DNA from: Paraphysoderma sedebokerense
Lineage: Eukaryota; Blastocladiomycota; Physodermatomycetes; Physodermatales; Physodermataceae
Assembly (NCBI GenBank): GCA_025602915.1
Contig: JAHLJZ010000007.1
Span: forward strand, 524,992-588,991
Direction: 5' to 3'
Length of the DNA stretch: 64,000 nucleotides
Every line of letters begins with the position of its first letter. The first letter of the stretch is position 1. A model generated the notes under the pieces. That model made no database searches. It had not been told where the DNA came from and saw only the letters and a program-made list of their open reading frames with translations. Below are positions 21,175 through 63,967 of the stretch, one piece after another. Position numbers and translations under genes: made by a program.

Positions 21175-23838
21175 TTAAACGCCGACACCTTGTGCATGGT
21201 GACTAGATTGGTCTTTCCCGATATCAATTCCACCAACTCCATCGTTGACCGTGTTTGTGCCGTTGCCCGCACTCGAAGGTTTACTTCCAGGTTTACTTCC
21301 AGGCTTAGACCCAGTCATGTTCGCATTCGAAAGATGGGACGCGTGACTGTTTAACCCTTTATCGAGGGACCCTGGATTCATGGATCTCAGTCCCCCGTTG
21401 GACAATTTCGCGGATCCGGATGGACGAGAAGGAGAGGGAGAATTGGAATGTACTGTGGCCGCGGGGGATGTAGAGTACTCGTCAATTTTTGCGAGTAGAG
21501 TGGTGGAGTAACCGGGGGAATAGTAACGAACTATTTCTTCAGGATAACACTCGTTGATAGTACGAATGCATTCGTATAGTTTTGTTCCCAGTAATGCATT
21601 TCCAGTTGAGGTCGCAGCAGCGGTAACAGCAGATGTACTGGCATTGTGTGAGTCGATTGTGGTAATACCACTTGCATTCTTTCCAACGGCAGTGGCATTA
21701 GCGGACTCGTTGGAGTTAAAAGTAGTCGGATTACTTGGCGCAGTTGTACTCCCCCACTTGTCTCCGACAGATTTGTAAGTAGCCGCGATCTCTTGTAAAC
21801 GCTGCAAACCACCCGAAGTCACGAAACTTCGACGAGCGCCAACATCATGGGGTAGAATTTTCGCGAATTGTCCAATAACGTATTTCAAAATATTGGGAGG
21901 TGTGGTGAGCTGAAGTAAAGCATCCAGAGACTCTAAGTGGAGGGTCTTTTCGAGGATACACTTCAACGCTCGTTTAGTCTGTATGTGGCGAAGGTTGCGA
22001 ATTAGTTGGAGAGCCCAGAAACATTCGAAGTATGCTCAATTTAGCAATACCTTTGTTCTTAAATCCTCGCCTGCATCCTGAGTTGACGCTGCCATTAGCA
22101 CTTTTAATAGTTTAGGCAATACCGTGTGGTCTGCCAATGTTTTGGCATGATCCGGGCTATGTCTGCCGATTTGTCCTAAAGACCAAGCACAAGCAGCCTA
22201 TCCCAACCATTAGTATGAATTTCAAATTATGGAACAAACAGGGCTTTCGAGAATCAAGAATGGGTACCTTGATATGTTCTTCACTTTCTGTTGCCAATGC
22301 GACTGATAATGGCGGAACCCCTTTAGATACAATAACACTTAAGGCTAAAGTTTCCGAGAAGGCGGAAATATAGCCAAGTGCCATGATACCGGGTAATCGA
22401 GCATTGCCTTTGGATTCGGTGACGTAGTCGACAATGGCGGCAACACCACCGGAGTTTACGACAAGTTGAGCGAGCTAATAAAATGTACGCACAAAGAGAA
22501 ATGGCGGCGAAAACAACATTTCGAGTCATAATGTTAGTTTGAACTGAAAGGAGAAAGACTCATTCACAGGGGCCATTAATGAGGTTGTAGGTGAGTAAAA
22601 AAAGAACTCACCTCAGGTGAATGCTTTGCTATTTCACAAACTAATGTCACCGCGTGTTTCCGAACATGACTATCCAAATCTTTAAAACAATTCAAAACAG
22701 CCGGAAATATATCGCCGTCGACGACCGCTTCGGCCAAATCAACGTTATGTTTTGCAATTTGAGATAGCGCAGAACAAACTTGTCGCTTCACTTTCGCATC
22801 GGTACTATTCAACAACGGGGCGAGAAAATGGATGCTGTTGCTGTCGACAACAGCTCTCGCAAGCTTTACAAGAAATTATTTGAGTGATCGAGAAAGTTGA
22901 ACAATGAATAAAGTAGAAAAGGGTAAATTGAGACAATTACCTCTGGGGTATGTTTGGAGATATCGCTCAAAGCAGAAGCGGAGATTCTCTTTAAAGAGAG
23001 TTCTGGTTCCTGTACGCAGATGACCAGGAGTGGGATAGCCCCCGAGTCCACGACAGCTTGTGCCAGCTCTAGAAGGGTTCGTCATATGGAGGAGATGGGA
23101 CATATTTGAATATTTAGATCCAGTTGCAAGTTATTGTTAGTGGAAGATGGCATCAGACTGTACCAGCGTTATGTCGAGCAATATAACCCAAAGCCCAAGC
23201 AGCAGACTCTTTGACTCCTGGATCGAATTCTTCCAAGCATGCAATGAGAGCTGTTAGTGCTTTTGCATCCACTACTGCTTTAGAGAGTTCTGGTGAATGT
23301 TTTGAAACAGCTCGGAGAACGAATGCAGCTGCTTTTTTGTAAAATCTCTAATAGTGTGCAAAACGGCAACATTGATTGAATCTCTTTGTCAGTCACAACA
23401 TGTATTGGGCTGATAATCTTATTGCCGAAAATCACCTACGTTCTGGCAAGCCAAACTATAAACCAACTGCGGTAGGATATCGCTATCGACGACCGACTGC
23501 GCTAGACTTTTGTTGTAATTTGCCAATCTTCCCAACGCTAGGGCAGCTGCCTGCTGGATAGCGGGTACAGTGTCAAGCAATAGTGGTCGAAGTAGGTACA
23601 TGACGTTTGCCTTTTGGAGAGCGTCGATATTTGATTCTCGCGCAGCATAGTCTGCAATAGTCTGGGCGAAATACAGTCTATCTTTTTGATATTTGTCAAA
23701 CTAACAACGGAGGATAGAGATGAGTTAGCAAATACATCTTCACTGGTCACACGATGGTTGTAGACGTACTGTTGCGAGGATAGACCTAAAGGCATTCTGG
23801 TTTTGGGAGGCAGGGGATGTCGGAGAGGGAGAAGCCAT
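21175..23838 (-). CDS. SPAG6: SPAG6/PF16 armadillo-repeat protein of the axonemal central pair
   Basis: Orthologue of SPAG6/PF16, an armadillo-repeat protein of the C1 central-pair microtubule needed for flagellar motility. It starts at the ATG at 23838 (MASPSPTSPASQNQNAFRSI). Armadillo repeats follow in successive exons: DTVPAIQQAAALALGRLANY, FYKKAAAFVLRAVSKHSPEL, FDPGVKESAAWALGYIARHN, LARAVVDSNSIHFLAPLLNS, VKRQVCSALSQIAKHNVDLA, VRKHAVTLVCEIAKHSPE, NARLPGIMALGYISAFSETL and AACAWSLGQIGRHSPDHAKT. The conserved C-terminal part is FAKILPHDVGARRSFVTSGG and then IRTINECYPEEIVRYYSPGY. Two additions are unusual. One is a Ser/Thr/Asn/Ala-rich insert of about 60 residues after GDKWGS. The other is a tail of about 90 residues with GSKPGSKPGSKPSS. 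It implies that the organism builds a 9+2 flagellum. Confidence 0.95.
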
Positions 23839-36150: not shown

Positions 36151-38918
36151 TTAATTCACCCCATTGTGAAGCGGGCAGAAAGGTACTGACCCTTCATTGT
36201 CTATTAGCTTTCCAATGCAACGCTCACCATCCATAACATAATGACATTGTCCACAATTCCTCTCCTTCGTAGAAACTGAGTTTCCGCAGATATTCGGTAT
36301 AGAAACGTCTGGTGGGTCTTCGACGATTAATATCGAGCAAAATCGTTTGCTTATATTTTGTGGAAGAGCGGAAGAGGAATTCTGAAGTGAAGAACTGTCG
36401 GGATTTGGATTCCGTATCGTGTCTTCCACCGATAGTTCTGACGGTTCCATAGCTGAAACATTAGAGATTCCCAAAAAACAAGCTCGCTTAACTGCTTTTT
36501 GTATGGTTTCGGCCAGTCTCTTACGTTTAATGGCTATTCCTGATTCTGACTCGTTGATATCCGAAGTATTACCGGAATTCGGCAAGGAAGAATTGTTTTC
36601 TGACAAGATTAACTCCATTGCGGATTGAATTGTGTCCGATTGGCTGGTATCTTCATCAGAGCTGTCTTCTATCTCGTACACTTCCCTCTCCGTACTGGGC
36701 TGATTCTGCATTTTCCTATCCATGTACCTGATCCTTTCATCCAAATAATCCAGCTCTCGCTTCATTTCTTTCTCAATTGAATAGATAGATCCTAAAATAG
36801 TCAACCATTTTTTCTGAGTTTTCAAACATTCCAGAGGTGTCCATCTTTCATTCTCCTTGCATACGGTTATTGTAATAGCAAATGGTGTAATTTGATGGTT
36901 CCTGTCAGATAAATAAGCTTTCCTTTTGATCGCCCATTCCTTATTGGAACAATGCTTGTTATGATCTTTTCGGAGTAAAACAAGGTTTCCAATTATATCA
37001 ATGCAGCTGAGGCGGTACCTATCAGTCCATGTTTTAACCCATTCTGATCGATCTTGCGGATTCTGCGGGCAGACGTGTTCAATCTCTGCATCAGTGTAAT
37101 CATACACCACGCCTCGTCCAACTAGCTGCTCATTGATTCTAAGTAAAAGGTATCTTGCAACGTTCGTTCTCGACCCATAAACGTCCCGTGAAAATGATTC
37201 GACTAATGATTTCTTCTCGTCTTTTTCTAATGTTAAGCTCTCTAGAATCATCCCCTCCAATTTAGATCGTCTAGCTGATGACATCGTATCTTCGTCAGGT
37301 ATCGACAATTTTTCAAGTATATAAATCGTTCGAGTCGCAATCTGATTCTCATCCCTTCTTTTCGCAAATAGACATAAATATGCAAAAAGATTTTCAATCT
37401 TATGAAGGAAATTCGTAACTAAATGAGAATTGAATTCGACCGGAAATTTTCGTAAAATACTCATCACCAAGGGAAGCCAATACTTCTCATATTTCTTCTC
37501 TAACAGATTCAGAAATCGTAAACTTCTAATGATATTAGGGTAACGTTTAAATGATGCTGTGTGATCTATTAAATTACAAAAAATGGCGGCGTAAGGAACA
37601 AGCCAATCATCAATAAATTGCTTTGTGTCAAGGTTGCCTTCCAAAACGAATCTATAGATATTGGAAGTTTCCGGAAACAGCGGATCATCGAATTGAACAG
37701 ACTTCTTTATAAATAACGCCGTCTTATCTCCTAGTGTCATGGTGTTGTCCATCGCGCTGTGAATTCGCAACATGTACTCGAACAATAACTTAAAATTTTC
37801 ACCCGAATCGCCATGTCCTGTTGTCAGCATGTTCTCGCATCGTTCCCATTTTTCCTGTTAATAGTGTCAGCATATAGCTCATAATTCCTTGGATGTGTCA
37901 TAGCAATATGTTTACCAAATATCTTGTGCTGGCGCGAGAGTCGCTTGCGTCCAGACGATCTTGAAGTTTTGCAAAAAGGCTCGCTTTCAAGTTATCCAAA
38001 AGATTTAAACGTACTCCTCTAATACCAAAATGGTTAAACGATGTTTTCAATGAGGGATGTAAAGCAACTAACCTGGCATTCAATGTTCTAAATATCACAT
38101 ACGCATTGGAAAGCGTGTCTGGTTCCAAAATGACCAGTTGAGTGTCATTCATCAAAAAGAGCGCAAACTTGAACAAAAATTCCACTAGTGTTGTTTTATT
38201 AGCGGTAAACTTCGTCTCAGAATGCTTGGCATAAAGTTCTGATAGACGATTATGTACACTTTGCGAAACTGACCGAAGTTTCAACGTAAACGAAGTCGGA
38301 TCAATAGAATACCGCAAAGGCGAAAAATTAGGATTCAACAATTCCTGCATTCCTTCGGGATCGGAAATGAATCGACGAAACAAGGTTCGCTCAGAATTTC
38401 GTTCTCTTAGGAAGAATTTGTAGTGAAACGGGTCATCTCGCTTGGTTGTTTTGGGAAATCCGGTAATCCATTCATCCATCACACGGTACTCTTCCGTACA
38501 TTGCGAGGATATCATGTACCGTATCACAGAGAGAATAATGATTATTGTTGTTATTCGTTGCTGGCCATCAATTATTAGGTAGGATCGGAGTTGGTTGTCG
38601 GAACACGCTAAATGAATTAATCGTGTTAGCCGAAAACATATGAACCGATTCTATCATCAAGTAACCAATGACTCAACCAATGATTATGCTTCCTAAAAAG
38701 TGCGGCCGAGGCGGAGATTTGTTCAGCGATGCTGCTATATCCAGTAGCAATAATTCTGTCTGTTGTCCGTTCCAGGCATATCCTCTCTGATAAATTGGGA
38801 GTGTAAGTTGGCTAATATTCGGAGACGTCAGCAGGGCATGAGGTGTGGAGACTGTACAAGCTAAATTTTGCGACGATGCGGATAGCGGTAGGGATAGCGA
38901 AGAAGCTGATCGATTCAT
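36151..38918 (-). CDS. DUF262-DUF1524 (GmrSD-type) nuclease-like protein with zinc-finger tail
   Basis: An 878-residue protein built like bacterial GmrSD-type type IV restriction enzymes. Exons are 38678-38918, 37916-38607 and 36151-37854, with phases verified. The N-terminal DUF262 part has QRGYAW (residues 44-49) and, just after the first intron, DGQQRITT (94-101). This is the nucleotide-binding/hydrolysis signature. The DUF1524 HNH-type nuclease domain has EHVCPQNP (570-577), IGNLVLL (599-605), N610 and SNKEW with following Lys (614-623), so the catalytic pattern is complete. Beyond it come a coiled-coil-like stretch (EKEMKRELDYLDERIRYMDR), an acidic Ser-rich linker, a basic KRKR patch and a C/H cluster at 845-874. 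In bacteria such proteins cleave modified phage DNA and depend on NTP. The role here is unknown. Two spliced introns show that it is resident in the eukaryotic genome. Confidence 0.87.
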
Positions 38919-39179: not shown

Positions 39180-42100
39180 CTATCGTCGCGGAGGTGCCGG
39201 GGGCCTAATTCCACCAGGCACACCTGGACCATTAGCCGGTCTCGATGGAGGCATAGGTCCCTATTTTAGCAAAACAGACAATTTGTGAGATAAGCATTCG
39301 TTTTGCTTTCATTCATCCTTGCGACATACCTTGTTTATACCGTTTCCGGTTCTCAATGGTGGTGCGGGGGCTGGCTTTGATGCAATAACGGGTGGATTAT
39401 GACCGGGCGCAGGACGAAGACCCGCTGCAGGCGGATTAGGTTTAGCGGCTGGAGTGGGAACTGTGTTGTTTCGACCAGGAACAGGCTTCAATCCAGCGGC
39501 AGGAGCGGGAGTGTGTGAGGTGGCAGGTGCCTTTGGAAAGAATTAGTAAATCGTCTACCATCAACATCTTCCATGCATAAAGACAAAGAAGAGCAACATA
39601 CCGGAGCCCGTCTGGCTTCCATCTCTGCCTTCCATGCTGGTACATTCGAATTGTTGTTACTAGACGGAGGATTTGGCGTAGTCTGTACCAGAAGGGTCAT
39701 ACTTAGCTTAATATCCATGAATTCAACATTGACCTGAAACACTACTTACATTACTTCTTTTTGCAGCAAGTTCTTGTTGCCACGACGGTGTAGAAGAGTT
39801 TGATGCCATATTTTGGATATCGGAAGAACTCTGAGAAAGGAGAGTCAATTACCAAAAGCCAGACTTAAAATAAAATCAAGTAAAAACGTACATTGTTTGC
39901 AGATCTCCTTGCAGCTAATTCCTGCTTCCATGATGGAACGGCAGGGTCTGCCGCTAAGGATTGTATATCGTTATTGCTCTGGAAATTAACTTAATTAGCT
40001 TACAATTCTTATAATACTTCCGCTAAAGAGATCCGATAGAATGCAGAAATCAGACATACGTGATTCGCAGCTTTCCTGGCAGCCAATTCCGCTTTCCACG
40101 CCGGAACAGCAGGACTGGACGCTATAACCGGTTCACTTTTTGTAAATGATTTCTTCACTAAAACGGGACTCGTGGTTGTTGGCGATGACGATTGCTTAAT
40201 CTGATTTTTTCGTGCTTGTTCAGCGACTTCGTGTGCATGAATGTTGGCGTCAGAAGAAGAACGACTGGCAGGGGCGGATGGTCGTCTTGGAGGTGGTGCT
40301 GGAGCTTGTCCGGATTTGACTTCCTCGAGGTAATTACTTAGAGTGAAAAATCGTTAGATCATCATCAAATCAACATTTGATGAGCGCTAGGAAAAATTTA
40401 CCTAGGAACCCATCCTTCTTCACCGGAAGAATTTCTTGCTAGCCACCATCCATTTTCATCTTTGTCCAAAATCTCCACAATCTCGTTTCCTTGAACCGTC
40501 AATTCACCTTCCTCTTCCTTCCTGAATTCATATATGGCTTTGAACATATCTTTCCTTGGCTGAGGAGCGTTGGATCTGGCCGGAACACGAGGAGCTGGAG
40601 CCGGAGCCGGCGCCGCAGGCTCCTCTGGTAAATTCGGAATTGCCATGGACGATGGAATCAAAACTGTAGGGGGGTGGGGAGCGATAACTGGATGCAATTT
40701 CGGATCACTCAACTGCATTCCACCGGAAAATAAGGAGGCATTAGCAATGATGGAGTCAGAAATGATACTTGAAATCATTAATTACCTGTCTGGGCGAGAA
40801 TGAAGGCGGTGGAGGCACACCAACTTTCAACCCACCTCCTTGTTGTTGCGTAGGTACCATCGGGGGTCTGGGCATACCCATCACAGCAGGAGTAGGCGCC
40901 GGTTGTCTCGCCGCAGGAGTGGGTATGGCCGGTGCCGGAGCTGGAGCTGGTTGTCTTACAGCAGGGGCAGTTGCAGCTGGCGGCGGTGCTGGTTGCCTCG
41001 GAGTGACTGTTGGTGGCGCTGGAGCTGGCATCCTGGAATTCTGTGTGGGGGGCATAGGAGCGGGCGCTCGTGCAGACACTGGTGGGGGTGGGAGGTTATT
41101 GTATGCATTATTAGCCACTGCAGGCGCAGCTGGTGCTGCTGGCTTTCGAGCAGCAGCTGCCTTCTGCGGAGCGGCTCTCGGTTGATTGTTTTGTCTGGGT
41201 CGCTGCTTTCTTGGAGGCGGAGCATGCGATACTAAGAATTGGGAAAGCACAATTACCAACATTTTCTCGCATGATTCAATACATATCACAAGACTTACCA
41301 CTTCCGGGAGGTTCGCCGGGTCCAACTGTCACTTTATCTTTCTTGTACTTGGCTTCCATGTTTGGTGGCAAGGTATCATCTCTCACAAATTTAAGTTTTC
41401 CTTTCTTTTGATCCTTACTATTCGTGTACTCGATCCTATGTTACACAATTACAATGAAATGGAGGTGTCAGAATAAGAACCACAAAGTACCGACACAAAA
41501 AAAATAGTTTAATCAACGTACTCAGAAGCCACCGCTAGTTTGATTCGGCCGTTTCCAAGATGAACTAAATAACTCGCCAACTCGGTTTTAAAATGATTGA
41601 CAAGCACAAGATCTGATTCAGCGCCGAGGTGAATAACCAAAAAGTCATCTTGTAAGTTCGACATAGATAGATGTGTGATTGATTTTATATCGATTTGTCG
41701 ATCCACTCTCTGAACCGCGATATTATTCTCAATCTTGGTAACAATCACATAGATATATTTATCCGTCTAAAGAGTAGTGGAGGATGGTTAGTTCAATGAC
41801 TACTCTGGTGTCAGGACCAAAGAAAAGTCGAAATCAAACCAGTAGAAGAATACGCGGGGAAAGCTTGTTGGAGCGTAACATTCTGGACACAAGAATATGA
41901 ATTTTTTCCGAAAAAATAATCAACTCGGACGCTGTACAGTTATGTATAAAATGGACGATTAACTTCATATTCTACAGACAATAACGCTGATCGCAAAAAA
42001 ATTCAACGTACCGGCCAAATTTGCTACTTCTCTTAAAGCTTTGCCGCCGTTACCAGCGACATCCAAGTAATCACCCAAATAACGTCTGTAACTTATCAAA

Positions 42101-45100
42101 CTGAATCTTCTCCTTTCTTTTCTACCACTCAATACTTGATGTCCGTAATCTCTCATTTGAATATAAACATTGAGTCCTTTCGATTCTCTCCAGGCTGCTT
42201 GGATTTTACGAGCGCACTTGTGTCGGAATAATATGAATTTTCTCCATTGTCGCTGGATACGGATAGCCATAGTATGCCAGTATCGCTCCCTCATTGCTTC
42301 GAGTTCAAAAAGCTGGAAAGAAATGCGAGAAAGTTGTTAGCTCACAGTAAAATACAAAATACAAACGATTTAAATATTGAATGGTTACCGTTTCTGGACG
42401 TTTGATAAATGCTTTTGTTCTTCCAATTTGCCATTCTTCGTTACCGATACCGGAATCATTCAAAATGATTTCACAACCTTTCCTTGGATCGCCGGTCCAC
42501 GACACTTCACCGGCATAACATGTGCGTCTCGATAACATGTAGAATCTGAACAATTTCAAAAGTGAGTGCAAAAATTCATTAGCGTGATAAAAAATGGCTA
42601 CAAACCGCTCTAAAAATCTCTCAGCCGGTTGACGATAGGCGAAACCAGCTCGTCTAACTCTAATATTCTCTAACAATCCGAGATATTTAATCTGGTGAAG
42701 CACCATTTTCTCATCAAACTCTTTAGCACTCTTGTTGCTGTTTGGTTTGATACATCTGATATAACTGGGTGTACAGGCCATCAAAGTATCTACAAGAGCT
42801 TGCGCCGATGTTTTGATACGGTCACTGGCAGTTGGTGGACGTTTTTTGGAATCGGAATCGAATTCATCAGGGAATAATGATTTTGTGAACTGGTTGGTAG
42901 ACATTTGCATCAACGATATAAGATCACGATTGAGTTGATCCTTGTTTTTGTCGGTCATGCTACGGATTTCGTAAATGACATCACCTATAAAACGACGGTC
43001 TATGTGAAAATTTATACATAGAGACAATAATGTCGAACGTCTACGAACCAGCGTAATGCTTGATAATAAATGCATCACCACGGTTGTGAAAGTGAGGATG
43101 GCTACTGATACTTCCTAATCGCTGTTGGAAACTTCTGTCGGCCGCATCAGAGTCGGCGTGAGCAGTAGCGCAGGAGTCATTAAGAATTGAGAAAACGCCG
43201 GGAGGACGCTAAAGCAGCCAGCGGTCAGCTATGCAAAATTACAACACTAACAAATTATTCTGAAACGACCTACCTTTTCTTCAATCAGATCACACACAAT
43301 CTTGTTGTTGAAAAATTCAATAGGGGTCTGCGAAAAAGAATTCTGTGTTAGACCTTGATTTGCGGTTAACGTCGATAGAAGCATAGTCATACCCATTTGA
43401 TCCCTTCGGCTACGTAGTCTTCTTGTTCGGCTTTCAATGTCAACTCAATGAAAATCTGCTGTAATTTTTCATTGACGTAGTTACTGATAATAAAAATAGA
43501 ACGTTAAAATCAAACAAAACAAAGGACACTGTGAATATGCTACATACATGCAAAGTTGTTCAAAACTATTGTGATCGAAAATTTCGAAACCGTAAATATC
43601 CAATACACCAATGGTTAAAGGAGCTTCTCCTCTTTGTCTCATGGCGTTGTTAACTCTTGCGACAATCCAATCAAATAGTCGCTCGTAAATAGCCTTAGCG
43701 AGGGCATCTCGTACTGCCGTGGCCTGCAGCGAAAAGCAACGGTGATTTAGTATAAATAAGTTAGAAGGGCTTGAATGCATTAGAACTTTACCTGGGTGAG
43801 ATTTAGAGGCACTTCGTATGAAGTACCACGTCGACCGCCTCTGTTAGTCTCGACCAATCTGGAACAGAGACTTTTCTCAACAAAGTCCACTGGAACGTCG
43901 AGCAAATAGGCAACGGTGTCGAGGGCTAAGATGAACAAATAACGAAGACAACATTAGTAACTTTGTGAACTAATCACAAATCAAGCCAAACTATACCATC
44001 TCGATCCGTAATTTGAGACTGATCTTCGTTATCAGTTGTAACAAAGCTAATGTTTCCAAGCCACAAAATTGCAGCTAATAATCTGTGTATACTGTCCTGC
44101 TCATTCTTTGCGATTCCTATAGTTTTCATCGCAGTCTGTTGAAATTTTGTTAGGGCAACGTCCGAAACCATTTACCATTTAGAATGCTAGAACAGACGGA
44201 TGAATACAAACCAGGACATCTTGATATTCTTCGGCATCATTCATACCATTCACTGTCATACAACCGCTCTGGCAGGTGAAAAGGTAGTGATCTGCACTTC
44301 CAATTCCGAAAGTGTCACGATATTCTTGTGACGCTCCAGCACAGAATTGATAAAATATATGGAAATTTCGCTCGTTTTTGATTTGCGATACGACACGTCC
44401 CTTCATTTTTGTTTGTATTAATGATTGAGGAGCTAGCAGTTCTTGTAATCATAGAAATTACCTTTTCAAGTAAATAATTAATGACATTAGCACCGACGGG
44501 TTCACCGTGCGAATTAAACTGAATCTCGAGGTATTTTCCCTAAATGGCACATCAACATCGTCATTAGTTTCTGTCTTTGAATCGAATCACTAAAGTAGAG
44601 GACTTACAAAGCGGGATGAATTATTGTTTCTTAAGGTTTTGGCATTACCAAAACTTTCTAGTAAGGGATTAGTAGCCAACACCATATCTTTAATCTGCTG
44701 AATTTGCGAATTGGAAGAACCGCCGGATACAGAAGCTATGTATTGCATAATTTTCTTTGCAGCTTCTGTCTTTCCTGCTCCGGATTCACCACTGATAATT
44801 ACACATTGACGTTCCTGGTATCCCACCATCTGACGATACATAGTTTCAGCAATAGCGAAAACGTGTGGTGCCATTTCCAACCTATTTCTGTCAACGTAGG
44901 ACTCTAGAACGGATTGAGTATAGATTGGTAATTCTCGAAACGGGTTTACTGAGATCAATACATGTCCAATATATGTCTAAAACGGAAGGCGGCGTTAGAT
45001 TGTACCCGGGGAGGGAACACAAAATATGTCGACAGTTGTTGCTATTGTTAAACGAGTAACTCGGAAAGACATTGCAATTTCCCATGAAATTTCAAGAACT

Positions 45101-57969: not shown

Positions 57970-59336
57970 ATGGGAAACGGATTTTCGTCTGAAAGAATCC
58001 CAGACCTCTCTGGAAAGGTGAATACTCTCGTCATGTTATGGTTGCTTCGAGCCAGGACCCTGAATGTTTGCTTGACTCTAACTGTCTTGAATTTGTCAAT
58101 TTCTCACAAAATAGACTGCCATCGTTACTGGTGCCAATACTGGTATTGGTCTTTCGACTTGCTTCTATCTCGCTGAGAGGAATGCGAGAGTTATTCTCGC
58201 CTGCAGAAACGAAACAAAGGTATGGTTGTTGTCGCGATGGTAGCCCAAAACATCAACACAGGATAGTCATTCATTGTTGCGTTTGTCGATATCGTTTTAT
58301 ACATAGGCAAAAGCTGCTATCGATACTATTAAACAACGACTAGCTAAATCTGGAAAGTCACAAGCTGAAGTTGATGCAGCCAAATTGGAATTCTTGCCGC
58401 TCGATTTAACCGACCTTAACAGTTGTGTTAAAGCTGCAGAGGATGTGTTGGCAGGAAACGGAGTTCAGAAAGTTGAAAAGTTGGACATGTTGATCAATAA
58501 TGCCGGTATCATGGCGACTCCATACGAATTAACTAAACAAGGGGTCGAATCTCAATGGGGCACGAACCATTTGGTATGCTAAACAAGCATATTCAGCATC
58601 GATAGTGTGTAAATGTTTACGGTTGAACTTTTCTCTTTCGAAATAGGGACATTTCGTGTGGACAATGTTACTTCTTCCCATCGTCCCTGAAAAGGGAAGA
58701 ATAGTCAATGTATCGTCTGAAGCTCATCGTCAATCATACAAGTTCAAATTATGCACTCTACAGCAAATGTTGCCAGAAGTTGAAGAAGCTCAAGAGGGAC
58801 AAAAGAAAGAAGCTGAAAAGATCTACTCCCCAATTAACGCCTATGGGCATTCCAAACTCAGCAATGTTCTTTTCTCAAATTGGTTGGCTGCTAAACGACC
58901 AAACTTGTACGTCATGAGTTTACACCCTGGTGTGATTGCTACCGAACTCGCGCGAAATATTGGAAAATCTTATGGCAATACTATACAAAAAATTTATGAC
59001 ACCGTCGGACCGTATATCCGTTCGTAGATCTATCTTCTCTTTTTGGGTTTCCATACTACAATGCTAACGGTTGACTGCTTTGTATATCATTCTCCAGTGA
59101 AAAGCGCCGATCAAGGTTGCGTAACTACTCTTTACGCTGCTACATCCCCAGACATCGAAACAAACAACTACAGTGGTAAATACCTAGTCCCGCAAGGTAA
59201 ACTTGGTAGTGCAATTTCTGCTGCCGGCGATGTAAAGTTACAAGAAGGATTGTGGGAGTTGAGTCTTGATATCGTTAAACGAAAGCTTGGTGAAGACATG
59301 GTGAATAGAATTAAGAAGAATGCGGGAGAATTGTGA
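57970..59336 (+). CDS. short-chain dehydrogenase/reductase, array copy 1
   Basis: NAD(P)-dependent oxidoreductase of the classical SDR superfamily, nearest to the retinol-dehydrogenase/WWOX-like group. It has 343 residues. Exons are 57970-58017, 58115-58219, 58307-58573, 58647-59019 and 59098-59336, with every phase checked. It starts MGNGFSSERIPDLSGK. The cofactor motif is complete (TAIVTGANTGIGLSTCFYLA), followed by NARVILACRN. The structural NNAG motif appears in LDMLINNAGIMATPYEL, the catalytic Ser in GRIVNVSSEAHRQS and the YxxxK pair in INAYGHSKLSNVLFS. The C-terminus has LYAATSPDIETNNYSGKYLV, then VKRKLGEDMVNRIKKNAGEL. MGNGFS fits an N-myristoylation consensus. There is no hydrophobic N-terminal anchor. 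The substrate is unknown. Confidence 0.92.
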
Positions 59337-59909
59337 ATTTAAGCGTATTTAATGTCTAAAACGGATGAGCCAAGATAGTCTGTTGATTTGTAACAAATAT
59401 ATTCATGAACTTTAAATGCATCGACCTTGGAGGACGATGAATAACATTGAAATGACGTCTGTTCCTTTCGCTTTCTTGGGTTCTTGGGAGTGTTATTTCT
59501 ACCGACATAAACCGGACGATACAATCATACAGTGCGGTCGCAAAGCTATTGTAGTCACCACCAATGACTTACCTAGCAGAGTCTTTCCTAAATATTTTTA
59601 GTTATTTATTGCGATTCCAAAGAGTTCATTGAAAGATACTATTGATTGTTCTCCAACGTAAATTTAGAGTCACTGTACTTCTGTGTCCTTCTGTGAATTC
59701 AGTTAACGAATTTCGGTATCGGTATAATTCATTATCCGATGCCGACAATGAATCACGCATGAAAAATCAGGCATAATTGGTGGCGCGCCAGTCAAGGCTG
59801 GACCAAAGTTCGACAAAAGCCATCGTCAAGCTTTCTATGCGACTCTGATTCATCTGTCACATCATCCCTATATAACTCACATCCCCCATGAATTTAATAT
59901 CTCAATCAA
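59337..59909. repeat. intergenic flank shared with other SDR copies
   Basis: The first part (59340-59600) is clearly related to 61265-61530 downstream of copy 2. Both hold AGATAGTCT(G/A)TTGAT, then TGTAACAAATATATT and CATTGAAATGACGTCTGT. The last part (about 59700-59909) is related to 63770-63967 upstream of copy 4, including GACAATGAATCA and CAAAAGCCA before the TATA box. Duplication units therefore included intergenic DNA. Confidence 0.75.
59869..59875 (+). promoter_or_regulatory. TATA box of SDR copy 2
   Basis: TATATAA 41 bp before the ATG at 59910. The equivalent TATATAAA is found before copies 3 and 4 at nearly the same distance. Confidence 0.6.
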
Positions 59910-61267
59910 ATGGGTAACAGTTTTTCTACGAAACAAATCCCCGACCTTTCGACCTTTCGGGTAAGGTAATTAACATATTGCGCTTTCGTTCTGACCCAAG
60001 TTAATGGAGTATAAGCTAAAATCTCTTAATTCCTCAATTTGCTCAACTTGAATGCATAGACTGCTATTGTGACCCTTTCGACTTGCTTTTACCTGGCGCA
60101 AAACAATGCGAGAGTTATTCTGGCTTGCAGAAACGAAACGAAGGTACGTTCATAATTCGGAGCAGTTCAAACGGTCGGGGCAGTTCAAACTGAAGCAATA
60201 TTGATATTGACTGCTTTTATTTTGGCGTAATGATGCGAATGTTTGTTACAAAGGCACAAACTGCAATTGAAATTATTAGAAAACGACTCATTGAGTCCGG
60301 GAGATCACAAGCGGAGGCGGATTCGGCCAAGCTGGAATTTTTACAACTGGATTTGACGGATCTCAACAGTTGTGTAAAAGCTGCAGAGAATGCTTTAGCC
60401 GGAAATAGTATCGGAAAAGTTGATAATTTGGACATTTTGATTAATAATGCTGGAATTATGACAACTCCGTATGAATTAACTAAGCAGGGTGTGGAGTCAC
60501 AATGGGGAACTAATCACTTGGTATGCATGAATTTTGCAAACCATGTATATATACGTTTTAATGATATTGATGGCTGGTTTATTAGGGCCACTTCGTGTGG
60601 ACGATGTTACTTCTTCCCGTCATTCCCGAGAAAGGAAGAATTGTTAATTTATCTTCAATCGCTCACCGCCAATCATACAAGTCCAAATTATGCACCCTAC
60701 AGCAAATCTTACCAGAAGCTGAAGAAACCAAAGACGGGCGAAAGAAAGAAGCCGAAAGAATTTACTCCCCTGTTTACGCCTACGGGCATTCTAAGCTAAG
60801 CAACATACTTTTTTCAAATTGGTTGGCTGCTAAACGCCCAGACCTATTGGTGATGAGTTTACATCCTGGAGTCATTGCCACGGAACTTTACCGAAATATA
60901 GGACGATATTACGGAAGTGTCGTACAAATGATTTATGAGACACTGGTGCGATTTTTCCGTCCGTATATTCCTTCTTTGCTTCAAATTTTCCCAATACCGT
61001 CTGACGGTTGACAATTCATTTTTTGCAGTGAAAAATGCCGATAAGGGCTGTATCACGACGCTGTACGCAGCTACATCCCCGGATATTGAGACGAAACATT
61101 ACAGTGGGAAATATTTAGTTCCTCAAGGTAAACTTGGTAGTGCAATTTCTGCTGCCGGCGATGTGAAGTTACAAGAAGGATTGTGGGAATTGAGTCTGGA
61201 AATCGTTAAACGAAAGCTTGGCGAAGAAATGGTAAATAGAATCAAGAAGAATGCTGGAGTATTGTGA
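59910..61267 (+). CDS. SDR array copy 2, cofactor glycine motif deleted
   Basis: Paralogue of copies 1 and 3, but altered. Exons 59910-59960, 60060-60143, 60254-60520, 60586-60958 and 61029-61267 give 337 residues. In exon 1 an 8-bp duplication (ACCTTTCG, at about 59943-59958) would shift the frame if the usual donor were used. A donor five bases upstream (CGG followed by GTAAGG) restores phase 0, giving MGNSFSTKQIPDLSTFR. In exon 2, 21 bp are missing relative to copies 1 and 3. TAIVT is followed directly by LSTCFYL, so GANTGIG, the NAD(P)-binding glycine motif, is absent. The rest is intact: LDILINNAGIMTTPYEL, GRIVNLSSIAHRQS and VYAYGHSKLSNILFS. The C-terminus is nearly identical to copy 1. 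It is either a decaying copy or a catalytically dead paralogue. Confidence 0.85.
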
Positions 61268-62042
61268 ATTTCAACGTATGGAAGATAGTCTATTGATCTG
61301 TAACAAATATATTTATGAACTTTAATGCATTCCCCTGTGGATGGCAATGGATGACATTGAAATGACGTCTGTCCCTTCCGCAATCTTACTACAGAGAGGA
61401 GCTAAACAGTCACTTCACTAAACTGTTACTTCTACCGACATGAACCGGCGGATACAATCGTGACAGGGCGGTAGCGAAGAAATTGAAACTACCACCATAT
61501 GACTTATCTGGCAGGGCTTAAATATTTTTAGTTACTTACTACGATTTCAAACGTTCATTGAAAGATACTATTGATTGTTCTCCCATATTATTCGTCTATT
61601 CCTAAGCGTGATCGGAGAAACCCCGGCATTCTGTTGATGCTTATAATACTAGGAAATCATACCGTTGCCTGCTAGATAAAATAGATTTTCATGCATACAT
61701 ATTGTGCCGAAAGCTTATTGACGGCTATTGCTCGCATTTCTTCAACGCTTCTAATGACGTTTGGTTCAGGAATTTCAGGTTATTGATTTTTGCTCGTTAA
61801 AATGAATTAAATGGACGTAATTAAGAGTAGGCTAGAAATAATAAAATAACGTCACTGCTGAAAGTAAGCAAATGTTGATGTCCGATCTCAACAATTATTC
61901 TCCTGAAATTCTGGGTCAAAATTGAGCTTACAATCAAGTCCGCCACCCATAATATGGCGCGAATGCAGACTGAAATGACCGATTTTTGTGCACTTCATTC
62001 CTATATAAATTTCTTCATCCGTGATAACAGTAACTAACAAAA
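61268..62042. other. 0.8 kb spacer between SDR copies 2 and 3
   Basis: The first 260 bp resemble the flank after copy 1. The remainder is AT-rich and not obviously shared with the other copies until the TATA box. Confidence 0.45.
62002..62009 (+). promoter_or_regulatory. TATA box of SDR copy 3
   Basis: TATATAAA 41 bp before the ATG at 62043, the same position as in copies 2 and 4. Confidence 0.6.
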
Positions 62043-63415
62043 ATGGGAAACAGCTTTTCTGCTAAACAAATTCCCGACCTTTCGGGTAAGGTAATGCATC
62101 GCCTTTCTGTTCTCGTCCAAGCTCATGCAATATTAGCTAAAGTTTTCTTAATTCGTCAATTTTTTCTATTGAATCTATAGACTGCTATTGTGACTGGTGC
62201 TAATACCGGTATTGGTCTATCGACTTGTTTCTATCTCGCCGAAAAGAATGCGAGAGTTATCCTCGCTTGTAGAAATGAAGTGAAGGTATGTGCATTGCAC
62301 CTTGTTAGTTCAAACTGAGATTTAGATTTGATCTAATGAAGTATTTGGGACGTGGGACGACATGTCACTTTATGTGTTACATAGGCAAAAGCTGCTATTG
62401 ACACAATTAAAAACCGCTTAATGTCGTCCGGAAAATCACAAGCAGAAGTGGATACCGCCAAATTGGAATTTTTACAACTCAATTTGTCGGATTTGAACAG
62501 TTGTGTGAAAGCCGCCGAAGATGCGTTGGCGGGGAATGGAATAGAGAAAGTGAAGACCTTGGATATTTTGATTAATAATGCTGGTATTATGACGACTCCA
62601 TACGAGTTAACTAAACAAGGTGTGGAGTCACAATGGGGAACCAACCACCTGGTATGTCGGATATGACCTTATCAATCAAACATCAATGAAAATTACATGT
62701 TACTTATATTGTTTTTTCGACTAGGGTCACTTTGTGTGGACCATGCTGCTTCTACCCGTTATGTCTGGAAAGGGGAGGATTGTCAATTTGTCTTCAGAAG
62801 GTCATCGACTTTCATACGGCTCTGAGTTATGCACTCTACAACAAGTCTTACCAGAGGCCGAAGAGACTCAAGAGGGACAAAAGAAAGAAGCCGAAAGAAT
62901 CTACTCCCCGGTTTATGCCTATGGACATTCTAAGCTAAGCAATGTACTATTTTCTAACTGGCTGGCCAGGAAAAGGCCAAATTTGTTCGTCATGAGTTTA
63001 CACCCTGGTATTATCGCTACCGAGCTAGGAAGAAGTATTGGAAAAACATATGGAATTATCATACAAAAGATTTACGACATTTTTTCGCCATACGTTTGTT
63101 AGTACACTTATCCTCCTCTCTTTCTTGCGTCTCCATAGTAGTGATCTAACTGTTAACTTTGCATCCATTCTTCCAGTGAAAACCGCCGATCAAGGTTGCA
63201 TCACTACACTTTATGCTGCCACTTCCCCTGACATCGAGATAAACAATTACAGTGGCAAATACCTAGTACCTCAAGGTAAACTTGGTAGTGCACTTTCCGC
63301 TGCCGGCGATCTAAAATTGCAAGACAAATTATGGGAATTGAGTCTGGAAATCGTTAAACGAAAGCTTGGTAATGATATGGTAAATAGAATTAAGAAAAAT
63401 GCAGGAGTAGTATGA
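62043..63415 (+). CDS. short-chain dehydrogenase/reductase, array copy 3
   Basis: Complete paralogue of 343 residues. Exons are 62043-62090, 62181-62285, 62385-62651, 62725-63097 and 63177-63415, identical in length to those of copy 1. It begins MGNSFSAKQIPDLSGK, again an N-myristoylation-type start. All SDR elements are present: TAIVTGANTGIGLSTCFYLA, LDILINNAGIMTTPYEL, GRIVNLSSEGHRLS and VYAYGHSKLSNVLFS. The C-terminus is LYAATSPDIEINNYSGKYLV and then VKRKLGNDMVNRIKKNAGVV. Divergence from copy 1 is mainly conservative and spread over the protein, whereas introns differ more, so the copy has probably stayed under selection. Confidence 0.92.
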
Positions 63416-63967
63416 ATTTTATTATTTATCTTTAACAAATGTTGGATATTATTATAATCCGTAAAAATGAATGTTGAACTCTAAATGCAACAACGTTCGG
63501 AGGAAGGGGATGTCATCAAAGATGTCTGTTCTCCGGATTTACAATTCATAGAAATATTCATCGGCTCAAACCAACAGATAATGTCTCATGATCTATTCAT
63601 TTTGATTTTCATACGACACGTAAATTAAGTGTCACCTTACTTCCGAGTAACTGTTTTTCCGAACCAAGTTGGCGGATTTCGGAAAAACTGTTAATGCCTA
63701 AATGTTTTCAACAAAATTCCGTACTCCACAATCATCACTTTGTTCAACGAGCTACTAGGCGCCGACAAAGTAAACTTCAGTATCCGATGTCGACAATGAA
63801 TCAGATGTGTGGGCATGAAAAGTCAAGCATAATTTGGTAGCGTGCCTATCAAGCGTGGACCAAAATGCGACAAAAGCCACCATTAAGCTTTTAATACGAC
63901 TCTTGATTCCCCCGCCAGTTCATCCCTATATAAACCACAGCTTCCATGAGTTTAATAGATGAAAAAA
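63416..63967. repeat. spacer with promoter related to that of SDR copy 2
   Basis: The last 200 bp are recognisably the same as the region before copy 2 (about 59700-59909), including the TATA box at 63927-63934. The first 350 bp hold nothing I recognise. Confidence 0.6.

Follow-up and report, generated by a model that had tools for sequence, protein, structure and literature searches.

The stretch of DNA analysed here, called the window below, comprises 64,000 nucleotides and corresponds to bases 524992-588991 of a contig of 588,991 bases, in a genome of 27.3 Mb assembled into 195 contigs. The gene of main interest lies on the minus strand at 38918-36151 (window coordinates) and encodes one fused DUF262-DUF1524 protein. 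Its neighbours are a TPR protein on one side and parts of a myosin motor and an SH3 domain on the opposite side. The latter region, at 39200-43114 on the minus strand, contains the end of a myosin motor and an SH3 domain, followed by several repeats of a 16-letter protein motif in short exons. Elsewhere in the window, the C-terminal part of a SPAG6/PF16 homolog at 21178-22035 (minus strand) runs into a long low-complexity extension. Three tandem blocks with about 71-75% DNA identity occupy 58151-63419, and an open reading frame (ORF) within them, at 60194-60796, resembles by eye a short-chain dehydrogenase.

Two sets of matches bear on the nature of the host, which an earlier note on this DNA had described as a flagellated fungus. 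The SPAG6/PF16 homolog matches the human-type SPAG6 entry 9IJJ at 9.3e-30, so the organism probably makes flagella, and this part of the description is supported. Chitin synthase yields 46 matches in the genome with a best E-value of 4.8e-204, in a family that also matches in 4 of 14 prokaryotic controls; these strong matches support the assignment to fungi without proving it.

Gene structure and protein architecture

The gene is divided into four exons on the minus strand. Exon 1 (38678-38918) begins with the start ATG at 38918 and carries the QRGYAW motif at 38789-38772, while exon 2 (38073-38607) carries DGQQR at 38569-38555. Exon 3 (37916-38018) contains the remainder of the FRTLNARGVRLNLLDNLK segment of DUF262, and exon 4 (36151-37854) encodes a helical linker, DUF1524, an acidic low-complexity stretch and a Cys-His tail up to the stop codon. 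The three introns are predicted from the sequence: intron 1 at 38608-38677 (70 nt, GTTGAG...CTAAC...TAG, phase 1), intron 2 at 38019-38072 (54 nt, in frame, GTTAGT...TTAAC...TAG) and intron 3 at 37855-37915 (61 nt, GTAAAC...CTGAC...CAG, phase 0). All begin with GT, finish with AG and contain a site resembling CTAAC, CTGAC or TTAAC 11-17 nt upstream of the 3' end.

The earlier note proposed two introns and a protein of 878 residues. Both of its introns (38677-38608 and 37915-37855) are compatible with the frame, and splicing them alone does reproduce 878 residues; the count was nevertheless too low, as the 54-nt intron 2 had been overlooked. This intron is open in the frame of the gene, is read through in the 878-residue model, and separates FRTLNAR from GVRLNLLDNLK. 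Its removal restores the FRTLNARG segment of DUF262 and raises the Pfam GmrSD_N score from 92.6 bits (profile positions 8-190 of 199) to 105.3 bits (8-199 of 199, that is, to the last position). BLASTP scores also increase in all six rows listed, for example from 138 to 149 for the bacterial relative L018. Because excision completes GmrSD_N and improves both the DUF262 and the BLASTP scores, the protein most likely comprises 860 residues from four exons rather than 878, as judged from these comparisons.

Both halves of the GmrSD architecture are recovered by Pfam in this spliced protein. GmrSD_N/DUF262 (PF03235; 37973-38822, a span that includes introns; residues 33-274 of 860) matches at E 6.1e-30 with 105.3 bits against a cut-off of 33.2, and GmrSD_C/DUF1524 (PF07510, the His-Me finger nuclease domain; 36829-37188, residues 516-635) at E 1.5e-16 with 60.9 bits against a cut-off of 23. 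E-values of this order exclude chance matches for either domain. The search for both domains suggested in the earlier note thus gave significant results, and its identification of a bacterial-type GmrSD (DUF262-DUF1524) protein holds. The key residues it listed as intact (QRGYAW, DGQQR, EHxxPQNP, IGNL, N and SNxxW) are likewise all found. In the 860-residue numbering, DUF262 contains QRGYAW at 44-49, DGQQR at 94-98 and FRTLN at 253-257, while DUF1524 contains EHVCPQNP at 552-559 (37080-37057), IGNL at 581-584, DHNK at 590-593 and SNKEW at 596-600.

The traits that characterize the GmrSD family are present as well. The QR, DGQQR and FxxxN motifs of DUF262, as defined in passages of PMC11411939, all occur, and the H...N...H/N signature of a His-Me finger on a beta-beta-alpha fold is found both in the sequence and in the predicted strands and helix. 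About 240 residues, predicted to be helical, separate the two Pfam matches (274-516) and fall within the 200-400 residues of the alpha-helical linker expected of the family. The long linker had been read in the earlier note as eukaryote-style. According to the family description in PMC4619093, however, bacterial members commonly have long helical linkers of this size (200-400 residues), so the inter-domain linker is no eukaryotic mark; the additional part of eukaryotic style is the acidic stretch after DUF1524. In phylogenetic trees the protein is nested among prokaryotic DUF262-DUF1524 proteins, which are the only kind of protein in the trees, so that this grouping indicates placement rather than membership. 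The conserved motifs correspond to those tied to NTPase and nuclease function in the relevant parts of PMC4619093 and PMC11411939.

Comparisons of exon 4 lead to the same family. An alignment of 30 rows, 29 of them prokaryotic, has F25, E259 and H260 of exon 4 invariant, with P263, G289, N290 and N299 among the columns conserved at 90% or more. PADLOC defence models match exon 4 at 1.4e-25 (Orf5), 2.9e-18 (HEC-06) and 1.9e-9 (SspE); NCBIfam gives no match at E 0.1 for exon 4 or for two paralogs. As a single sequence searched against the PDB, exon 4 retrieves SspE at no better than E 0.0053. The 30-row profile retrieves 9JFL (5.1e-71), 20YV, SspE (1.1e-38) and BrxU (1.2e-5), results that tell more of the family than of the window protein because 29 rows are prokaryotic. 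The AlphaFold2 model of exon 4 alone (567 residues, mean pLDDT 67.6, pTM 0.61) consists of a helical bundle followed by a beta-beta-alpha finger, with strands at 256-260 and 291-295 and a helix at 296-302 in exon 4 numbering. The first 67 residues, which belong to the linker, are modelled at low confidence. In total, 207 of 567 residues have a pLDDT below 50, as do most positions from 464 to the end, tail included. A Foldseek search of the PDB with this model gives no match at E 0.001 or less. Its four highest-ranking matches, three C-terminal chains of SspE and one of BrxU, have E-values from 0.029 to 0.12, probabilities of 0.89-0.98 and TM-scores of 0.21-0.27, and this weakness is due in part to the low-confidence residues.

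After DUF1524 the protein continues with the acidic stretch, then KRKRLAETIQKAVKR (36484-36528, minus strand), which we take to be a possible bipartite nuclear localisation signal, and finally CGQCHYVMDGERCIGKLIDNEGSVPFCPLH, the C-terminal Cys-His tail (36166-36255, minus strand; residues 827-856), a zinc-finger-like CxxCH-x7-C-x13-CxxH. Simple basic patterns are found in none of the four paralog rows. The tail is real as a pattern and is not confined to this protein, the earlier note having pointed it out here. Expressed as C..CH.{5,11}C.{8,15}C..H, with spacing limits set after the paralogs had been seen, it occurs in the window protein and in three of the four paralog rows. The fourth row, C44, stops short of the tail, and its locus has the pattern behind a stop together with a second, interrupted one. 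The pattern is absent from all 44 prokaryotic homolog rows, the five prokaryotic rows added for the second tree, the 167 long ORFs of the prokaryotic loci and 5000 shuffles of the window protein. With a profile built from the paralog tails, the window tail obtains 8.5 bits, against 6.2 for the best of 2000 shuffles, and the whole window protein reaches only E 0.98 among 851 sequences. One paralog tail used as a genome query gives five matches, all within the paralog loci; the window tail is not recovered even at E 10. Because this profile match is weak and the paralog query misses the window tail, a tail common to the window protein and its paralogs is likely on the basis of the pattern, but not proven. 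A Pfam search with three tails at E 10 returns no curated zinc-finger family above its cut-off; the single match, zf-TRM13_CCCH (PF11722), to which one paralog tail is vaguely alike, has an E-value of 2.8 and 8.1 bits against a cut-off of 20.9, and no relation is claimed. Behind the copy at the C44 locus (L112/L113), the tail seems to recur two or three times, with stops and changes of frame in between.

Further copies in the genome and origin of the family

The genome contains additional members of the family. GmrSD_N gives seven matches at six places, the window gene accounting for two of them, and GmrSD_C matches at five places. Apart from the window gene, there are four near-complete copies (C167a, C167b, C192 and C44), one broken copy (C58) and one fragment (C123). 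C167a and C192 share 65% identity, while C167b and C44 are 47-51% and 40-43% identical to the other paralogs, respectively; the window copy is about 22-25% identical to all four. The five own-genome rows do not vary at QR, Y, W, DGQQR, EH.CPQ.P, GN (including GNL), HN and N..W, and the PADLOC models HEC-06 and Orf5 match the paralogs too.

The state of these copies bears on the possibility of a decaying relic without activity. C58 retains only the first half, with three TGA and one TAA inside the match, C123 is a fragment, the tail of C44 is reached only by reading through stops, and the open frames of C192 and C167b have no ATG upstream of their QRPYQW motif. The window gene, however, keeps 860 codons, canonical splice sites and all family motifs, and the comparison of C167a with C192 indicates selective constraint (dN 0.19 and dS 0.42 by NG86; 0.20 and 0.39 by YN00). 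A decaying relic is considered very improbable. Pairs of C167b with C167a or C192 have dN of 0.36-0.42 and dS above 2, near saturation (NG86). YN00 gave values for one of six paralog pairs, and NG86 gave no dS for the three pairs with C44.

The setting of several copies raises the idea of a selfish or cargo gene, in which mobile elements in repeat-rich contigs would carry the family around, the window copy having settled and being of little use to the host. By eye, C192 is surrounded by retroelement-like ORFs, along with tandem repeats, C44 lies beside a hAT-like transposase, and contig C167 holds two copies in opposite orientations. On the other side, neither terminal repeats nor target duplications bounding the copies have been established, the DNA similarity between C167a and C192 (77.6% over 2446 bp) is largely limited to the gene itself, and the window copy has no DNA-level match to the paralog loci. 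A selfish or cargo gene is regarded as quite unlikely. Other features were noted at these loci. Directly upstream of the C44 copy, at L013 2562-5085 on the minus strand, lie ORFs that by eye resemble a hAT transposase and include a zinc finger of TTF type. Adjoining C167a (L014 300-2867, minus strand) are ORFs that by eye resemble a UvrD-type helicase, at 16.7 bits under the cut-off of Pfam UvrD_C, and possibly part of a RecB-like nuclease. Beside the broken C58 copy (L017 5825-7187) there is a 682-bp perfect direct repeat, head to tail, which is either a recent duplication or an assembly artefact.

On sequence evidence, the window gene is a genuine, resident member of the GmrSD family. Contamination, which the earlier note had also dismissed, is ruled out by the 589-kb contig with its eukaryotic neighbours, the introns and a host-like base composition: the third-position GC of the gene is 0.405, within the 0.375-0.484 of seven neighbouring ORFs. 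The copies elsewhere in the same genome and their grouping in one clade also support residence.

To place the family, 174 relatives were found and 80 kept, of which 44 loci entered the first tree; short, partial or redundant loci were left out by hand. Seven of the 49 rows, with long branches or doubtful, were dropped for the second tree, including the alphaproteobacterial L020, and five were added. Neither tree includes C58 (broken), C123 (a fragment) or L098. Long branches and an uneven composition are present in both sets, in which the own-genome copies are the only eukaryotic rows. In the first tree (49 rows) the five own-genome rows form one clade (100/97), sister to seven alphaproteobacterial rows with a joint support of 95/89; in the second, the corresponding values are 98/96 and, for the joint group with alphaproteobacteria, 99/96. 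The closest named relative is L018 of Novosphingobium percolationis, with 27% identity over 593 residues. ORFs on both sides of L018 read by eye as type I restriction-modification genes, and GmrSD genes are described in type I loci in part of PMC11411939. Among 385 genomes of the class of L018, six match at E 1e-12 or less, none of them a clearly closer donor.

The window copy and the paralogs could also derive from two separate bacterial acquisitions, with tails that merely look alike. The 22-25% identity between them is no higher than that with bacterial L018 (27%), the tail profile match is weak, and in the second set the topology test does not reject a tree that forces the window protein together with nine alphaproteobacterial rows (p-AU 0.084). 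Against this, the own-genome clade is well supported in both trees, and in the first set the topology tests reject placing the window protein with alphaproteobacteria (p-AU 0.018) or with L018 alone (p-AU 0.0003). The tail pattern, moreover, is shared with paralogs (in C44 behind a stop) and missing from prokaryotic rows and shuffles. Two acquisitions appear unlikely.

A search for a viral source gave no positive result. In three viral_contigs scans, the window protein gave no pattern match, A4 gave 48 stretches with no relative and A1 gave 70 stretches with one relative, L098, which reads as a bacterial gene. Phage records contain no relative, and viral structures none at E 0.001 or less. L098 (5001-7810), from an IMG/VR contig filed as viral, looks by eye like a GmrSD-like gene of bacterial kind that IS-like transposase ORFs interrupt.

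Known relatives, possible function and significance

Many fungal entries in protein databases carry the GmrSD domain name, and fungal GmrSD may consequently be less rare than the literature suggests. In searches of an open-access library, no title or opening of an abstract dealt with a fungal GmrSD enzyme. GmrSD in other eukaryotes is already published: the survey portion of Machnicka et al. (2015, PMC4619093) reports 1119 homologs, counts three eukaryotes among 613 fully sequenced organisms, and names Bacillariophyta, Chlorophyta and Heterolobosea, fungi not being among the groups given there. Among fungi, a list in PMC5406856 includes a DUF262 protein of shiitake, and one in PMC6453484 two DUF1524 proteins in the secretome of Duddingtonia flagrans. 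As described in passages of PMC4619093, E. coli GmrSD and its family of type IV restriction enzymes resemble the window protein in the N-terminal DUF262, the C-terminal DUF1524, the helical linker, DGQQR and (E/D)H..PQ. The window gene differs in being eukaryotic and in its three predicted introns, and its acidic stretch and Cys-His tail after DUF1524 are not among the extra domains given in those passages (DUF4268, DUF4357 and DNA_binding_1).

Better characterized bacterial proteins share the same domains. SspE (PDB 6JIV, 7DRR, 7DRI; PMC13251355) has a similar domain order, and the structural matches are to its nuclease domain, but it senses phosphorothioate DNA, partners with SspABCD and has very low identity to the window protein. 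BrxU (PDB 7P9K, 7P9M), HEC-06 and PADLOC Orf5 are, like the window protein, single fused DUF262-DUF1524 proteins; unlike it, they are bacterial and have no tail. TgvB of the Vibrio cholerae system TgvAB is a DUF262-DUF1524 protein in the account of PMC11411939, which reports that its active-site mutants lose anti-phage activity; TgvAB, however, is a two-protein system, whereas the window gene encodes a single protein. For SspE (PMC13251355) and for BrxU and TgvAB (PMC11411939), the sections concerned describe a DUF262 that senses modification, NTP hydrolysis that relays the signal and a DUF1524 that cleaves. As identity to any known relative is only about 25%, the specificity of the window protein cannot be read from them.

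The preferred reading, with a probability of roughly one half, is that of a resident eukaryotic GmrSD nuclease, derived from bacteria, duplicated, and most likely used to restrict invading DNA. A bacterial restriction enzyme, most likely of alphaproteobacterial type, would have entered the lineage long ago and duplicated, and the window copy would have gained introns. By analogy with the solved bacterial relatives, the N-terminal DUF262 would bind NTP and DNA with some foreign or modified feature, the DGQQR pocket would hydrolyse the NTP and so release the C-terminal DUF1524 His-Me finger, and the freed finger (E552/H553, N583, N592/N597) would nick or cut the DNA. The protein keeps the parts for sensing, NTP hydrolysis and cleavage, through which it may be active and modification-dependent. 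The Cys-His tail is likely to bind zinc and to anchor the enzyme to a partner or to nucleic acid. The acidic, flexible stretch with its possible nuclear signal suggests a nuclear location, and the DNA restricted in such a defence would be that of viruses or mobile elements.

Instead of acting against invaders, the enzyme may have been recruited as a housekeeping nuclease for the cell's own DNA, in repair, modified-base turnover or transposon silencing. The window copy is a single one surrounded by ordinary genes; it has introns, a base composition like that of the host and a long branch of its own. The genome may also carry modified bases, as suggested by 11 matches to the DNA C5-methyltransferase family and one MT-A70 gene (two matches), which an enzyme that cuts in response to modification would need either to tolerate or to exploit. 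The C5-methyltransferase-family matches lie on contigs C18, C53, C72, C132 and C150, some of them on near-identical repeats (twice on C18; alike on C72 and C150). TET/JBP gave no match in the genome, nor did the control of that search. The paralogs, however, are multiplied, diverged, partly broken and located beside transposon-like ORFs, as is often the case with conflict genes, and the relatives whose role is known from the relevant parts of PMC11411939 and PMC13251355 are defence enzymes. A housekeeping role is held to be rather unlikely.

The defence reading can be extended. The lineage would then have several copies of a nuclear GmrSD nuclease that senses modification, was taken from alphaproteobacteria and was directed to other targets by a new Cys-His zinc tail. 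One stable copy with introns would coexist with copies in repeat-rich regions that evolve fast, a pattern like that of an arms race against DNA viruses or transposons. Such a full eukaryotic restriction system is put forward only tentatively, as a somewhat doubtful possibility.

Nucleases that restrict DNA according to its modification are seen as a defence of prokaryotes. If active, the window enzyme could represent a restriction-type defence inside a eukaryote. The role of a nuclease of bacterial descent may have changed in its eukaryotic host. The family itself is already known; what is new is a GmrSD variant with introns and a Cys-His tail, worth testing as a eukaryotic restriction enzyme. 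Because the next-nearest alphaproteobacterial genes are close, the transfer could be dated given related fungal genomes. The presence of the family also raises the question of how a sensor of modified DNA would be spared from cutting a host genome that is itself possibly methylated. Conserved, duplicated and tailed, this GmrSD family in a flagellated and probably fungal genome offers a concrete case for studying whether such enzymes serve eukaryotes against DNA viruses or transposons.
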